NCBI GenBank assembly: GCA_947626515.1
Contig: CANQSL010000008.1
Span: 1 to 40,270 of the forward strand
Length of the DNA stretch: 40,270 nt
DNA from: an uncultured Bacilli bacterium
GTDB lineage: Bacteria; Bacillota_I; Bacilli_A; RF39; UBA660
Direction: 5' to 3'
The notes beneath the pieces are model-generated. The model was not told the origin of the DNA. It did no database searches and worked only from the letters and a program-made list of their open reading frames with translations. Positions 3,372 through 26,428 of this stretch are shown here, piece by piece (position 1 is the stretch's first letter; the number at the start of each line of letters is the position of its first letter). The translations under genes and the position numbers were made by a program.

Positions 3372-5918
3372 TCAAATATAATCGATAACTTTTTTCTTTT
3401 TAAATAATAATTTTCTAAATAAATCTACAGGGATTACAGAAAATGCTAATAAAATTACAATAATTAATTCTTTTAAAGATAATCCATAAGTTCTAAAAAC
3501 ATTTCCTCCATAATATATTAAATATATTTGTACAATGCTAATACATATAAATACAATTGTAAAAATTTTATTTTTATTTAAATTACTCAATAAATTTAAT
3601 CTTGTTGTTCTAGCATTAAAAGCATTAAATATACCCATAAAAATAAATAAAGCAAAAAAACCAGTCATGTAATATAAATCATTTTTAAATAGACTTCTTA
3701 TAAAATTACTAGATAAATAAAATATACATAACAATGAAGAATATATACCAATTATAATTATTTCAAAATACATAAATTTATTTATTATAGATGCATTTTT
3801 CTTTTTTGGTAATTCTTGCATGTATTCTTTTAATGGAGCTTCATAACTAAAAGCTAGTCCAGCTAATGTATCCATAATCATATTTATCCAAAGCATTTGA
3901 ACAACAGTAATTGGAGTAGATATTCCTATTAATGGCCCTACTATACTCAATATTAATGCACAACAATTTACTGTAAGTTGATATATTATAAATTTTCTTA
4001 TACTTTTAAATATTGTTCTACCATATAAAATAGCATTACTTATTGATATTAAATTATTATCCATTATAACAATGTCAGAAGATTCTTTTGCTATCTCTGT
4101 ACCACTTCCCATTGCAAAACCCACATCAGCAATTTTTAATGCAGGAGCATCATTTACCCCATCTCCAGTCATTCCTACTACTAATCCTTTCTTTTGACAA
4201 ACTTTGACTAATCTACTTTTATCAGTGGGCAATGCCCTCGCTACTACTCTCAAATTAGGTAAAATATCTAATAGTACTTCATCACTCATATTATTTAAGT
4301 CATCACTAGTTATTACTAAATCTTTATCACTATTTATTAAATTTATATCTTTTCCTATACTTATAGCAGTATCTTTATCATCACCAGTTATCATAACGAT
4401 TTGTATACCAGCAGATTTAACCAAATTAACCCCATTTAAAGCATTATCTCTAATTTCATCTTTTATAACTACAAAACCTATAAAACATAGATTACTTAAA
4501 ATAGAATTTCCAGTTTTATAAGCTACTGAAATTATCCTCATTCCTTCTCTAGTTAAATTTGAAATTATTTTAAATAAATTTTCTTTATTTTTTAAAATTT
4601 GTTTATATCCTAATTCATCTAAATAATAATCACATTTATTAATAATTACTTCATTAGCACCTTTAAAATAAAAAATATTTTTATCAACTATTTTACTACA
4701 AGAATATTTATTTTTACTATTAAAATTTACTATCATTTCACTATCTTCAATTTTATCAAGTTTTAAATAATTCATTATAGCTTTATCAGTACTATTCCCA
4801 CCAATTACATCATTATTACTATAAATACTTGCATTATTATATAAAAGACTATCTATAAATATTTTCTTATATTTTTCTCTACTACATTCTTCCCCTTTAT
4901 AATTTAATAATTTTTTTACACTTAATTTACCACTAGTAATAGTACCAGTTTTATCAGTAAAAAGAATATTAATATTTCCAGCTGTTTCTATTCCAACTAA
5001 TTTTCTTACTAAAACATTTCCTTTTAACATTCTTTTCATATTACTAGATAATACTAATGCTACCATCATAGGAAGGCCTTCTGGAACAGCTACAATAATT
5101 ACAGTAACACATAATGTTAAAGCATATATTAAATAATCTATCATTATTTTAGGAGTTGTGACAGTTTTAATTATCAAATCCATATCATAATTATTATTTA
5201 TAACTATTGTTGAAAATAAATATGAAATAACAACTAATATAGATCCAATGTAACCAATTACACTTATAACCTTAGCCAGTTTACGCAATCTTATTTTTAA
5301 AGGACTATCAATTGTTTTGGACATTATCTCTTTTTCTATATTTCCATACATCGTATTTCTACCTACACTGCTTACTTTAATATAACAATTTCCATCACAA
5401 ATTATACTTCCTTTAAAAATTTTACTATTAATATTTTTTTCTACTTCTTTACTCTCGCCATTTAATGCTGATTCATCTATAAGAATATTTCCCTTTAATA
5501 TAATTCCATCAGCAGGAACTAAATCTCCACTTTCTAAATAAACGATATCGTCTACTACAACTTCACTCATTTTAATAGTTATTAATTTACCATTTCTTTT
5601 TACTTTTACATTTATATTTAAATTTTCTTCTTGTAATCTTTTAAAAGCCTTTTCACTGCCATATTCACTAATAGATGAAATAAAAGAAGCTAAGAAAACA
5701 GCAATTAAAATTCCCAATGTTTCAAACCAATCAAAGTCTCTAAATAAAAGTACAACTTTAACAACAAGTGCAATAAGCAATATTTTTATTATTGGATCTC
5801 CAAAAGATTCTATAAATAGTGAAAAAAAACTATGAGATTTTGTATTTTCTACTTGATTAGATCCATATTTTTTTCTATTAATTTTTACTGTTTCATCACT
5901 TAGTCCATTTAGTTCCAT
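3372..5918 (-). CDS. Calcium-type P-type ATPase (P2 family)
   Basis: An 848-residue cation pump of normal length. Visible landmarks: the actuator motif as NGES (153-156, usually TGES), PEGLP in the fourth membrane helix (279-283), the phosphorylated aspartate in DKTGT (322-326), the nucleotide-domain KGA (419-421) and the hinge TGDGVND (584-590). The sixth-helix region reads NMIMD followed by TLAGLAF, typical of Ca2+ pumps. The first 30 residues match the N-terminal cation ATPase domain. It would use ATP to export Ca2+ across the plasma membrane. It has its own ribosome binding site (TAGGAGG) and terminator and looks monocistronic. Ca2+ is favoured, but Na+ or Mn2+ cannot be excluded. Confidence 0.92.
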   Translation of the reverse strand: MELNGLSDETVKINRKKYGSNQVENTKSHSFFSLFIESFGDPIIKILLIALVVKVVLLFRDFDWFETLGILIAVFLASFISSISEYGSEKAFKRLQEENLNINVKVKRNGKLITIKMSEVVVDDIVYLESGDLVPADGIILKGNILIDESALNGESKEVEKNINSKIFKGSIICDGNCYIKVSSVGRNTMYGNIEKEIMSKTIDSPLKIRLRKLAKVISVIGYIGSILVVISYLFSTIVINNNYDMDLIIKTVTTPKIMIDYLIYALTLCVTVIIVAVPEGLPMMVALVLSSNMKRMLKGNVLVRKLVGIETAGNINILFTDKTGTITSGKLSVKKLLNYKGEECSREKYKKIFIDSLLYNNASIYSNNDVIGGNSTDKAIMNYLKLDKIEDSEMIVNFNSKNKYSCSKIVDKNIFYFKGANEVIINKCDYYLDELGYKQILKNKENLFKIISNLTREGMRIISVAYKTGNSILSNLCFIGFVVIKDEIRDNALNGVNLVKSAGIQIVMITGDDKDTAISIGKDINLINSDKDLVITSDDLNNMSDEVLLDILPNLRVVARALPTDKSRLVKVCQKKGLVVGMTGDGVNDAPALKIADVGFAMGSGTEIAKESSDIVIMDNNLISISNAILYGRTIFKSIRKFIIYQLTVNCCALILSIVGPLIGISTPITVVQMLWINMIMDTLAGLAFSYEAPLKEYMQELPKKKNASIINKFMYFEIIIIGIYSSLLCIFYLSSNFIRSLFKNDLYYMTGFFALFIFMGIFNAFNARTTRLNLLSNLNKNKIFTIVFICISIVQIYLIYYGGNVFRTYGLSLKELIIVILLAFSVIPVDLFRKLLFKKKKVIDYI

Positions 5919-22402: not shown

Positions 22403-22425
22403 AAAAAAAGTTAAGTTACTTAACT
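22403..22425 (-). terminator. Terminator after the ClpC-like gene
   Basis: AGTTAAG/CTTAACT stem (22409-22415 with 22419-22425) with the loop TTA, followed leftward by a run of U. The loop is the stop codon of the ClpC-like gene. Confidence 0.7.
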
Positions 22426-24275
22426 AAATTTTTACTATTTAAACTTATTTTTATACCTCTAAATCCATAATTTTTATAGTCACATTTAGATATATCAAAA
22501 TCTTTAATATTATTATATTCTATATATTTATTAATAGAGTCAATTCCTATACTATTAAATTTTACTATATAATCAACTTTATTTAAAACTTCTTTATTAT
22601 CATATATTATATTATTTAATAAATTATTAAATCCAATATTATATAATATTTTATTAGTTGCACTCAAAAATATAAAACTATTATTTAATTTTTTATCTAA
22701 TAATTCTCTATCTTCTATTAATTTTAAAATAATATCTAATATATTTTTATTATATTTTTCTATATTATCAAATAGAATAATACTATTATCATTTATTCTT
22801 TTATAAACACTATTTTCACCATTATAAAAATTATTGATACTATAACTATTAGTATACTCACTCATATCAAATCTTATAAAGTTTATATTTAGTTCTTTAC
22901 TTATTTCACTTATACTTAAACTTTTTCCTACTCCTATTCCACCTAATAATAATATACTTTTAAAAGAATTATTTTCTGCTAATATATTTATTATTTCTTC
23001 AATTGCTATATCTTGACCGAATACAACATTAGATACTTTACTTTTTATATTTTCTTTATTAATATTAAATTTTCTTTTTATTTTTCTTTCTATAACATAT
23101 TCTATATCTTCTTTTAATATTTTATCTTTATTTTTATTTTTTACTAATGAACATACACTATCTAAAACATCTAGTGTTTTATCTGGATTATTTTTATTTG
23201 TAATATATTTATTAGAATATTCTAATATAGTATCTAAATTTTTCTTAGTAATATTTATATTATAATATTTTTTATAATTATCTTTTACTTTATATAGTAT
23301 CTCTTTAGTTTCTTCTAAATTAGGCTCTTTTACATTAATTATTTCAAATCTTCTACATAGAGCTTTATCTTTACTCAAATAAGTATTATATTCATTTATT
23401 GTAGTTGCTCCAATTACTTTAATATCACCTTTACTTAAATATGGTTTTAATATATTAGCAGCATCTATAGCACCTTCAGATCCACCCGCATTTATTAATG
23501 TATGTATTTCATCGATAAATAAAATTATTTTTTCATTGTCAATAACTTCTTTTATTACATCATTTAATCTTTCTTCAAAATCTCCTCTATATTTACTTCC
23601 TGCTACTAATAAAGACATATCTAAATAGAATATTCTATAACCTTTTAGCATACTATAATACCCATCTTTTATTCTCTTTGCTAGTCCTTCTACTATTGCT
23701 GTCTTACCTACGCCTGCTTCTCCTATTAACAATGGATTATTTTTATTTTTTCTTAAAATAATCTCTACCATTTCATCCATTATATCTAATCTACCATATA
23801 AAACAGTATCATTATTTGATAAATCATAGCCATATTTATTTAATACATTAGTTATGAAGCCATTACTCTTTTTTAAATCCTTATACATACTATCTAAATC
23901 TATATTCATATTAATTAAAATTCTAACTCCTATTCCATCTCCACTTTCTAATATACTTAAAAATAAATGTTCAGGAGTAACTGTTCCATTATTATTTTCT
24001 TTTGCACACTTAATAGATTCGTTTATAATACTTTTTAACAAAGGTGTATGTAATATAGTTTCACTTTTAATATTAGATTTACCAATTATATTAATTAATT
24101 CTTCTTTAAAATTATCATAGTTTAAATCATATTTTTCTGTAATATAATTTATATTATTTTCTTTTAATAAAGCTAATATTAAATGTTCACTACCAACATA
24201 TGGATGATTTAACATAAGCATTTCCTTTTCTGCAACTTTTAATATCTTTTTTACAAAATCATTTTTACGTGTCAT
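22416..24275 (-). CDS. Divergent ClpC/ClpA-like AAA+ ATPase with degenerate second ATPase domain
   Basis: A 619-residue protein, about 200 shorter than typical ClpC. Residues 1-140 are two Clp N-domain repeats (SEHLILALL at 29-37, PEHLFLSIL at 101-109). The first AAA+ domain is intact: Walker A GEAGVGKT (185-192), pore-loop segment GSKYRGDFEERL (226-237), Walker B ILFIDEIH (251-258) and arginines R308/R309. The second is compressed: Walker A GGIGVGKS (445-452) and Walker B IILFDNIEK (499-507), where Asn504 replaces the catalytic Glu. I see no GYVG pore motif in it and no ClpP-binding loop. It may be a stand-alone unfoldase. It has no promoter room upstream, so it depends on read-through from spo0A. 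Confidence 0.85.
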   Translation of the reverse strand: MTRKNDFVKKILKVAEKEMLMLNHPYVGSEHLILALLKENNINYITEKYDLNYDNFKEELINIIGKSNIKSETILHTPLLKSIINESIKCAKENNNGTVTPEHLFLSILESGDGIGVRILINMNIDLDSMYKDLKKSNGFITNVLNKYGYDLSNNDTVLYGRLDIMDEMVEIILRKNKNNPLLIGEAGVGKTAIVEGLAKRIKDGYYSMLKGYRIFYLDMSLLVAGSKYRGDFEERLNDVIKEVIDNEKIILFIDEIHTLINAGGSEGAIDAANILKPYLSKGDIKVIGATTINEYNTYLSKDKALCRRFEIINVKEPNLEETKEILYKVKDNYKKYYNINITKKNLDTILEYSNKYITNKNNPDKTLDVLDSVCSLVKNKNKDKILKEDIEYVIERKIKRKFNINKENIKSKVSNVVFGQDIAIEEIINILAENNSFKSILLLGGIGVGKSLSISEISKELNINFIRFDMSEYTNSYSINNFYNGENSVYKRINDNSIILFDNIEKYNKNILDIILKLIEDRELLDKKLNNSFIFLSATNKILYNIGFNNLLNNIIYDNKEVLNKVDYIVKFNSIGIDSINKYIEYNNIKDFDISKCDYKNYGFRGIKISLNSKNLVK

Positions 24276-24281
24276 AAAAAA

Positions 24282-24316
24282 ATCCTCCTTATATATCTTA
24301 TGTATATAATGAGGAT
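24282..24316 (-). promoter_or_regulatory. Hairpin between spo0A and the ClpC-like gene that covers the Shine-Dalgarno site
   Basis: In the leftward RNA, ATCCTCATTATATA (24316-24303) pairs with TATATAAGGAGGAT (24295-24282) at 13 of 14 positions, loop CATAAGA. Six U follow, then ATG 24275. So the stem carries the whole AAGGAGG site of the Clp gene and also looks like an intrinsic terminator for spo0A. Possible readings: terminator with read-through, translational blocker, or RNA thermometer. The structure is seen; the role is not. Confidence 0.7.
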
Positions 24317-24332
24317 AAAATTTAATTTTTAT

Positions 24333-25085
24333 TCAAAATTTAGTTTCTAATTTTAATTTATCTGTCAAAGTCGCAATAAATTCACTATTAGTTGGTCTTG
24401 CCTTATCATAATCTACACTATGTCCAAAAACTTCTTCCATTAAATCATAGTCTCCTCTATTCCAACTAATTTCTATTGCATGTCTTATTGCTCTTTCAAC
24501 TCTACTACTCGTAGTATTAAATTTAGATGCAATTTCTGGATACATTTCCTTGGTAATAGCTCCCAATAAACTAGGATCGTTATACATAAGACCTATACCT
24601 TCTCTAATATATTCATAACCTTTTATATGTGATGGTACACCTAAAGAGTGTAAAAGATTAGAAATTGCAGATTGTAATTGTCTATTTTTATCTACTATAT
24701 TTTCCTGTCTAATATTTAAATTTAATATTTGGCTTTCCAAATCTTTTAAATCAAATGGTTTTAACATAAAATAATTAATATTATAAAGACTTATTTGTTT
24801 TATAACATCTAAAGAATTATATCCTGTTAAAACTATTATATCTTTGTCTATTTTATTTGCTCTCATATCTTTAATTAGACTCATACCATCCTTATTAGAC
24901 AAAATCAAATCTGTAATAACCACATCAAATTTATTTGGAAATGTTTTAATAAAATTTGATGCTTCTAAACCATCACTAAATTTTTTAACTACATTGATTA
25001 CTGCGTGACTGCTAAAATACTGCTCCATACTTCTTAATTGTTCTTTATCAGAATCAATTAGTACTACACGTATTTTATTTTTCAT
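24333..25085 (-). CDS. spo0A: Sporulation master response regulator Spo0A
   Basis: A 250-residue response regulator. ATG 25085 follows AAGGAG. The receiver (1-120) has D59 as phospho-acceptor, T87 and K109; the usual DD pair is D11-S12, and the MP-x-x-DG motif reads LSNKDG. The Spo0A-specific DNA-binding domain (145-250) is very typical: GYEYIREGIGLMY, then SSRVERAIRHAIEISWNRG (193-211), the recognition helix, and a conserved C-terminal ARPTNSEFIA. It would switch genes on or off at 0A boxes as cells enter sporulation. A 0A box and a good promoter lie upstream. Downstream is the Clp-like gene, separated by a hairpin. Confidence 0.95.
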   Translation of the reverse strand: MKNKIRVVLIDSDKEQLRSMEQYFSSHAVINVVKKFSDGLEASNFIKTFPNKFDVVITDLILSNKDGMSLIKDMRANKIDKDIIVLTGYNSLDVIKQISLYNINYFMLKPFDLKDLESQILNLNIRQENIVDKNRQLQSAISNLLHSLGVPSHIKGYEYIREGIGLMYNDPSLLGAITKEMYPEIASKFNTTSSRVERAIRHAIEISWNRGDYDLMEEVFGHSVDYDKARPTNSEFIATLTDKLKLETKF

Positions 25086-25150
25086 ATTATTCTCCTTTTT
25101 CCCACGCAAATTAATTATAGTATATAAAGTGACAAATTAAAAGAATATAT

Positions 25151-26404: not shown

Positions 26405-26428
26405 TAAAAAAGATGTGTACACATCTTT
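26405..26428 (-). terminator. Terminator between the thioredoxin-like protein and the S41 protease
   Basis: A perfect palindrome AAAGATGTGT/ACACATCTTT (26409-26428) followed leftward by a run of U (26410-26405). The GGAGG site of the protease gene begins within about 5 nt, so no promoter fits between them. Confidence 0.75.

Follow-up and report, generated by a model that had tools for sequence, protein, structure and literature searches.

In Bacillus subtilis, a hairpin in the read-through RNA of spoIIGA-sigE has been proposed to block the translation of sigG, and this hairpin is unable to form in the RNA made from the gene's own forespore promoter (PMC5942855). In phage T4, the Shine-Dalgarno (SD) sequences of genes e, soc, 49 and I-TevI are locked by a helix in long early transcripts, and for e and I-TevI, late promoters situated close to the 5' arm or inside it have been shown to give RNAs that lack the arm and have a free SD (PMC3014915, PMC2988022). 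Because of these examples, the principle of a hairpin lock that one transcript carries and another escapes is already known. In this study, we analysed the junction between spo0A and a clp gene in a window of 40,270 nucleotides (the whole stretch of DNA under study) from an uncultured bacterium of the order RF39, for which a spore-forming capability has been predicted (PMC10868615).

Results

On the minus strand, an S41 protease gene, spo0A and clp follow one another (Table 1). The identities of the last two had been proposed in an earlier reading made from the DNA letters alone (the sequence-only reading) and were confirmed by the TIGR02875 match of Spo0A and the Clp_N, AAA and AAA_2 matches of Clp. 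Since a good sigmaA-like promoter, TTGACA-N16-TACAAT (25178-25151), precedes spo0A, early transcription toward clp is to be expected. The spacer between the two genes is 57 bases long and leads to the clp ATG at 24275 (minus strand); the spo0A stop codon TGA (24335-24333, minus strand) shares bases with the predicted -35 box of clp. In its degenerate second ATPase domain the Clp of the window has ILFDNIE, compared with DEIE in many relatives. A pattern search found no second Walker A motif in the Clp proteins of other genera with the spo0A-clp order (G189, G056, G165, G040), which are 553-659 aa long, whereas lengths of 700-775 aa prevail in the family.

Table 1. Features of the spo0A-clp junction and the evidence for each
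Feature	Position	Strand	Evidence
spo0A (Spo0A receiver and C-terminal domains)	24333..25109	-	Pfam Spo0A_C 4.1e-41; NCBIfam TIGR02875 225 bits, cut-off 200
clp, ClpC/ClpA-like ATPase, 619 aa, degenerate second ATPase domain	22416..24275	-	Pfam Clp_N, AAA, AAA_lid_9, AAA_2
Predicted -35 box GAATA of a putative clp promoter of the forespore (sigmaG/F) type	24330..24334	-	Conserved G-N-A-T-A columns in 49 clp upstreams; matrix rank
Predicted -10 box CATTATA, 18 nt past GAATA, sharing bases with the hairpin 5' arm	24305..24311	-	Conserved columns; matrix rank
Hairpin 5' arm (anti-Shine-Dalgarno), ATCCTCATTATATA	24303..24316	-	Pairing, folding and shuffle tests
Hairpin loop CATAAGA	24296..24302	-	Together with 24295 makes up the CATAAGAT box, counterpart of the family-wide CATAGAAT box
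Hairpin 3' arm, TATATAAGGAGGAT, containing the clp SD AAGGAGG (24290-24284)	24282..24295	-	Pairing, folding and SD accessibility
T6 tract between stem and clp ATG, U-tract of the apparent terminator and also SD-ATG spacer	24276..24281	-	Sequence; T run of at least 4 in 9/9 spo0A-clp pairs

The two arms of the hairpin, ATCCTCATTATATA and TATATAAGGAGGAT, form 13 of 14 possible pairs with a single A.G mismatch, so that the stem over AAGGAGG, followed by six T and the ATG, is as the sequence-only reading had described it. Its folding energy of -11.4 kcal/mol (z -4.1) was equalled in 1 of 200 shuffled sequences, and when the SD and T run were kept fixed and the upstream part alone was shuffled, 23 of 5000 sequences were equally good; the hairpin is thus better than chance. 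As in an intrinsic terminator, the stem-loop (24316-24282) is followed directly by a U-tract (24281-24276). The stem is modest and AT-rich, and a pattern scan in which no mismatches were allowed did not call it a terminator.

An SD-covering hairpin with a T run is present in all nine species, from four genera, in which spo0A lies immediately 5' of clp (G000-G003; G056 and G189; G165; G040 and G179), but at only 3 of the 60 clp genes that have a different neighbour, two of these three being from one genus (Fisher 3.9e-9, the species counted being non-independent). For the count of nine, the cut-off for SD pairing was set at 0.8 and then relaxed to 0.7, because the stricter setting failed on the A.G mismatch. 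Loss of the stem with the gene pair kept did not occur; one candidate for such a loss, L013 (G024), was rejected, as the gene 5' of clp encodes a transporter-like protein and not Spo0A. The comparison of the stem among relatives that the sequence-only reading had called for revealed a two-sided pair-preserving change in G056 (T-A to A-T) and pair-preserving changes on the 5' side in G165 (C-G to T-G) and G179 (A-T to G-T); in addition, the stem of G165 has gained one pair and that of G001 has one uncompensated mismatch. That the changes are mostly on the 5' side is explained by the constraint which the SD places on the 3' arm. The MAFFT alignment misplaced G040, G179 and G165, and pairs were therefore registered by hand on the SD, a procedure that biases toward structure. 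Taken with the neighbour comparison, these data support the proposal that one hairpin looks to combine the terminator of spo0A with a lock for the SD of clp.

In RNA read through from spo0A, the computed unpaired fraction of the SD is 0.004-0.07 in eight of the nine species and 0.29 in G001, while in RNA from the predicted own start of clp it is 0.28-0.82; in G001 the SD is computed to be no freer in its own mRNA, with 0.29 in both RNAs. For the window, the values in the read-through RNA are 0.043, 0.028, 0.026 and 0.033 at 25, 37, 45 and 55 C, respectively, and the SD in RNA from the upstream promoter is thus predicted to be sequestered (0.028 unpaired) and about 97% paired over the whole range. 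Because the computed pairing barely shifts with temperature, an RNA thermometer, which would open the stem at higher temperature as the sequence-only reading had suggested, is unlikely.

To compare promoters, clp orthologues of the family were collected together with their upstreams, including those of genera in which the upstream gene differs. In many genera, TTGNATAAA, then CATNATA, then CATAGAAT stand at fixed distances just 5' of the SD, and the consensus of the family promoter is GNATA-N18-CATNNTA. In the window, the span of its boxes (24334-24305, minus strand) crosses the hairpin. Weight matrices were used to scan stretches of the own genome adding up to 1.31 of the 1.37 Mb of the draft. 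With a matrix built from 39 clp upstreams without the own genus, the window site scored 25.2 bits and the runner-up 16.6 (1.31 Mb, both strands), and with one built from 36 clp genes that belong to other genera and follow a different upstream gene, the site at 24335 on the minus strand ranked first with 22.9 bits, the next one having 16.0 (1.31 Mb). When the matrix was restricted to the -35 and -10 boxes, the clp site came second, and the top four matches also held spoVAC and a DUF2383-like gene; at each of these three genes a hairpin is overlaid. The clp transcript would start at about 24298, within the hairpin loop, a position which hinges on the assignment of the -10 box; the spoVAC counterpart would land in or just 5' of the SD.

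The predicted promoter has a GNATA-like -35 box, a spacing of 17-18 nt and a CATNNTA -10 box, features that it shares with known forespore genes, and GNATA-N17/18-CATNNTA agrees with the sigmaG consensus of B. subtilis. Small acid-soluble spore protein (SASP) genes are classic targets of sigmaG, and in several relatives their upstreams contain GTATR-N17-CATNNTA. A box of this type was found in 8 of 1061 upstreams of the own genome, compared with 2.2 expected (Poisson p 0.002), including those of spoVAC and gerA. Homologues of SigE, SigK and SigG, and also of SpoIVA, are encoded. In Clostridioides difficile the SigF and SigG boxes have been reported to be closely alike, and since the two are hard to separate, the clp promoter is best described as a putative forespore promoter of the sigmaG, or sigmaF, type.

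A sigmaE or sigmaK promoter, active in the mother cell, was also considered, because CATAGAAT is common to the clp upstreams and is represented in the loop by CATAAGAT. This reading was dropped, as a conserved -35 box at the proper distance is lacking while GNATA stands 18 nt 5' of the adjacent CATNNTA. The gene spoIVA is a classic sigmaE gene, and its upstreams are without the layout of the clp promoter. CtsR or CIRCE sites were not seen at clp when the sequence was inspected by eye against the consensus. The CATAGAAT box (24302-24295 in the window) lies two bases 3' of the -10 box in most clp promoters, and its conservation exceeds that of the promoter boxes themselves. It is absent at spoVAC and is clp-specific among the genes looked at, and a sigmaG promoter would give no account of a box in this position.

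In several SASP promoters of relatives (L182, L183, L186, L191), TGTACA flanks the -10 box on both sides, as in TGTACA-CATTCTATTAG-TGTACA, which is possibly an operator. Upstream of a P-type cation ATPase gene of the window (3372-5918, minus strand), CATAAGTTTA lies close 5' of AGGAGG with a T run upstream, and this is perhaps another sporulation-type promoter. Seven genomes (G009, G025, G027, G029, G030, G032, G033) have neither SpoIVA nor SpoVAC, and some of them lack a strong match to the Clp of the window, which would be as expected if clp goes with sporulation.

The same overlay, with the SD in the 3' arm and a T run 5' of the ATG, is found in the own genome between a sigF-like gene and spoVAC, and also 5' of the DUF2383-like gene, a YlbD-like coat gene, a GDPD gene and a small-protein gene. 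These junctions are between co-directional genes with spacers of 34-57 bases, and in shuffle tests 0 to 30 of 5000 sequences were equally good at each. Within the genus, the overlay is present in five of five members at sigF-like/spoVAC, where the -10 box of the promoter lies within the hairpin, in five of five at GDPD, and in three of four at YlbD. Of these junctions, clp, spoVAC and the DUF2383-like gene have a forespore-type box, and none was found at YlbD or GDPD. Counted by a fixed rule over the genome, hairpins of this kind number 12, with 5.6 +/- 1.9 expected; because this enrichment is mild, the count was dropped as strong evidence, and the case for recurrence is made from conservation and from the loci taken one by one.

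The sequence-only reading had also pointed to a similar squeeze 5' of the S41 protease gene (26405-26428). A plain intrinsic terminator, AAAGATGT-GTAC-ACATCTTT followed by T's, is indeed present at this site, where the stretch 26428-26406 (minus strand) is the perfect palindrome AAAGATGTGTACACATCTTT; however, the SD TGGAGG (26403-26398) lies just outside the stem, and there is accordingly no SD lock.

Discussion

We consider it likely that the spo0A-clp spacer serves as a compact insulator between spo0A, which is transcribed before division, and clp, a gene of the forespore. Polymerase arriving from spo0A would make the entire hairpin and terminate at the U-tract, and in any RNA that is read through, the clp SD would stay paired and be poorly translated. 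Later, forespore RNA polymerase carrying sigmaG, or sigmaF, would start at the promoter that covers the 5' arm and the loop. The forespore mRNA would then begin in the loop, and its SD would be freer because the 5' arm is missing, which would allow translation. One DNA sequence might in this way be a stop and a lock for the polymerase from upstream and an open start for the forespore polymerase, a view that we put forward tentatively and would rate at slightly below an even chance. Much the same caution applies to the wider suggestion that a terminator, a forespore promoter and the following gene's SD have repeatedly been fused within about 50 bases, shielding forespore genes from early transcripts; the case for it is nearly balanced, though just on the doubtful side.

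A simpler explanation, which we regard as unlikely but as the most serious competitor, is plain compaction: the hairpin would be just the terminator of spo0A squeezed onto the clp leader, with the SD and its U-rich spacer serving by chance as 3' arm and U-tract, the overlaid promoter would drive clp, and the lock would be a by-product without a role. This would be consistent with the finding that the hairpin tracks the upstream neighbour, and also with the loss of the YlbD hairpin in G002, where the upstream gene has changed. In several other clp promoters of the family, a separate terminator-like hairpin, identified by eye, abuts the -35 box, and overlays occur at junctions without a tie to forespore genes, such as GDPD. 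Against this stands that the lock is physically unavoidable once read-through RNA exists, and that spo0A-clp and sigF-like-spoVAC both pair an early regulator with a forespore gene.

A very different proposal was made in the sequence-only reading, namely that the spacer is too small to hold a promoter of its own and that clp is made by read-through alone when heat or a factor opens the stem. The stem is conserved and the SD is computed to be paired in read-through RNA, as this would demand; nevertheless we regard the proposal as very improbable. A family-wide conserved promoter motif lies inside the spacer, and the predicted start falls between 24333 and 24276, the interval in which, by the sequence-only reading itself, a start would refute the proposal. 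With this forespore-type promoter overlying the hairpin, expression of clp would require neither read-through nor melting. In addition, the computed SD pairing is flat over the temperatures considered, and 57 bases would seem small for a ligand-binding domain. It is hardly credible either that the inverted repeat acts in the DNA, as the operator of a repressor, rather than as an RNA structure: the dyad does lie over a promoter and the CATAGAAT box keeps a constant spacing to the -10 box, but most of the family's clp genes have the promoter without the repeat, the arms differ among the clp, spoVAC and GDPD loci, which have the SD and T run alone in common, and the pair-preserving G-U changes suit RNA.

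If the insulator reading is correct, it would show how a reduced genome controls the timing of development through spacers of only some 34 to 57 bases, and a single spacer is predicted to act differently according to the sigma factor that reads it. It would also connect a little-known Clp paralogue with the forespore.

A literature search for a fusion of terminator, promoter and SD, in which few subscription papers were covered, gave no direct match, and within that scope the variant seen here, in which an apparent intrinsic terminator is fused to such a lock within a very short spacer and the arrangement recurs, was not found described. Like intrinsic (Rho-independent) terminators, the hairpin is a stem-loop with a T run directly after it; unlike the usual ones, it has an AT-rich stem with one mismatch, and its 3' arm is the SD of the next gene. 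In phage T4, the promoter is a late phage promoter and the accessible text describes no overlapping terminator, whereas at spo0A-clp a putative sporulation promoter is combined with an apparent intrinsic terminator. There is also a likeness to sigG of B. subtilis, in that a hairpin would lock the read-through RNA and be absent from the RNA of the forespore promoter. However, the sigG hairpin is described as very large, with 20 or more pairs, while that of spo0A-clp has about 13 pairs in its 57-base spacer; the U-tract of the latter lies directly before the ATG, and the accessible part of PMC5942855 mentions no terminator role for the former. The genes also differ, being sigG in B. subtilis and clp and spoVAC here, and the B. 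subtilis example would, if our reading holds, be extended to a recurrent architecture that includes both spo0A-clp and sigF-like-spoVAC.
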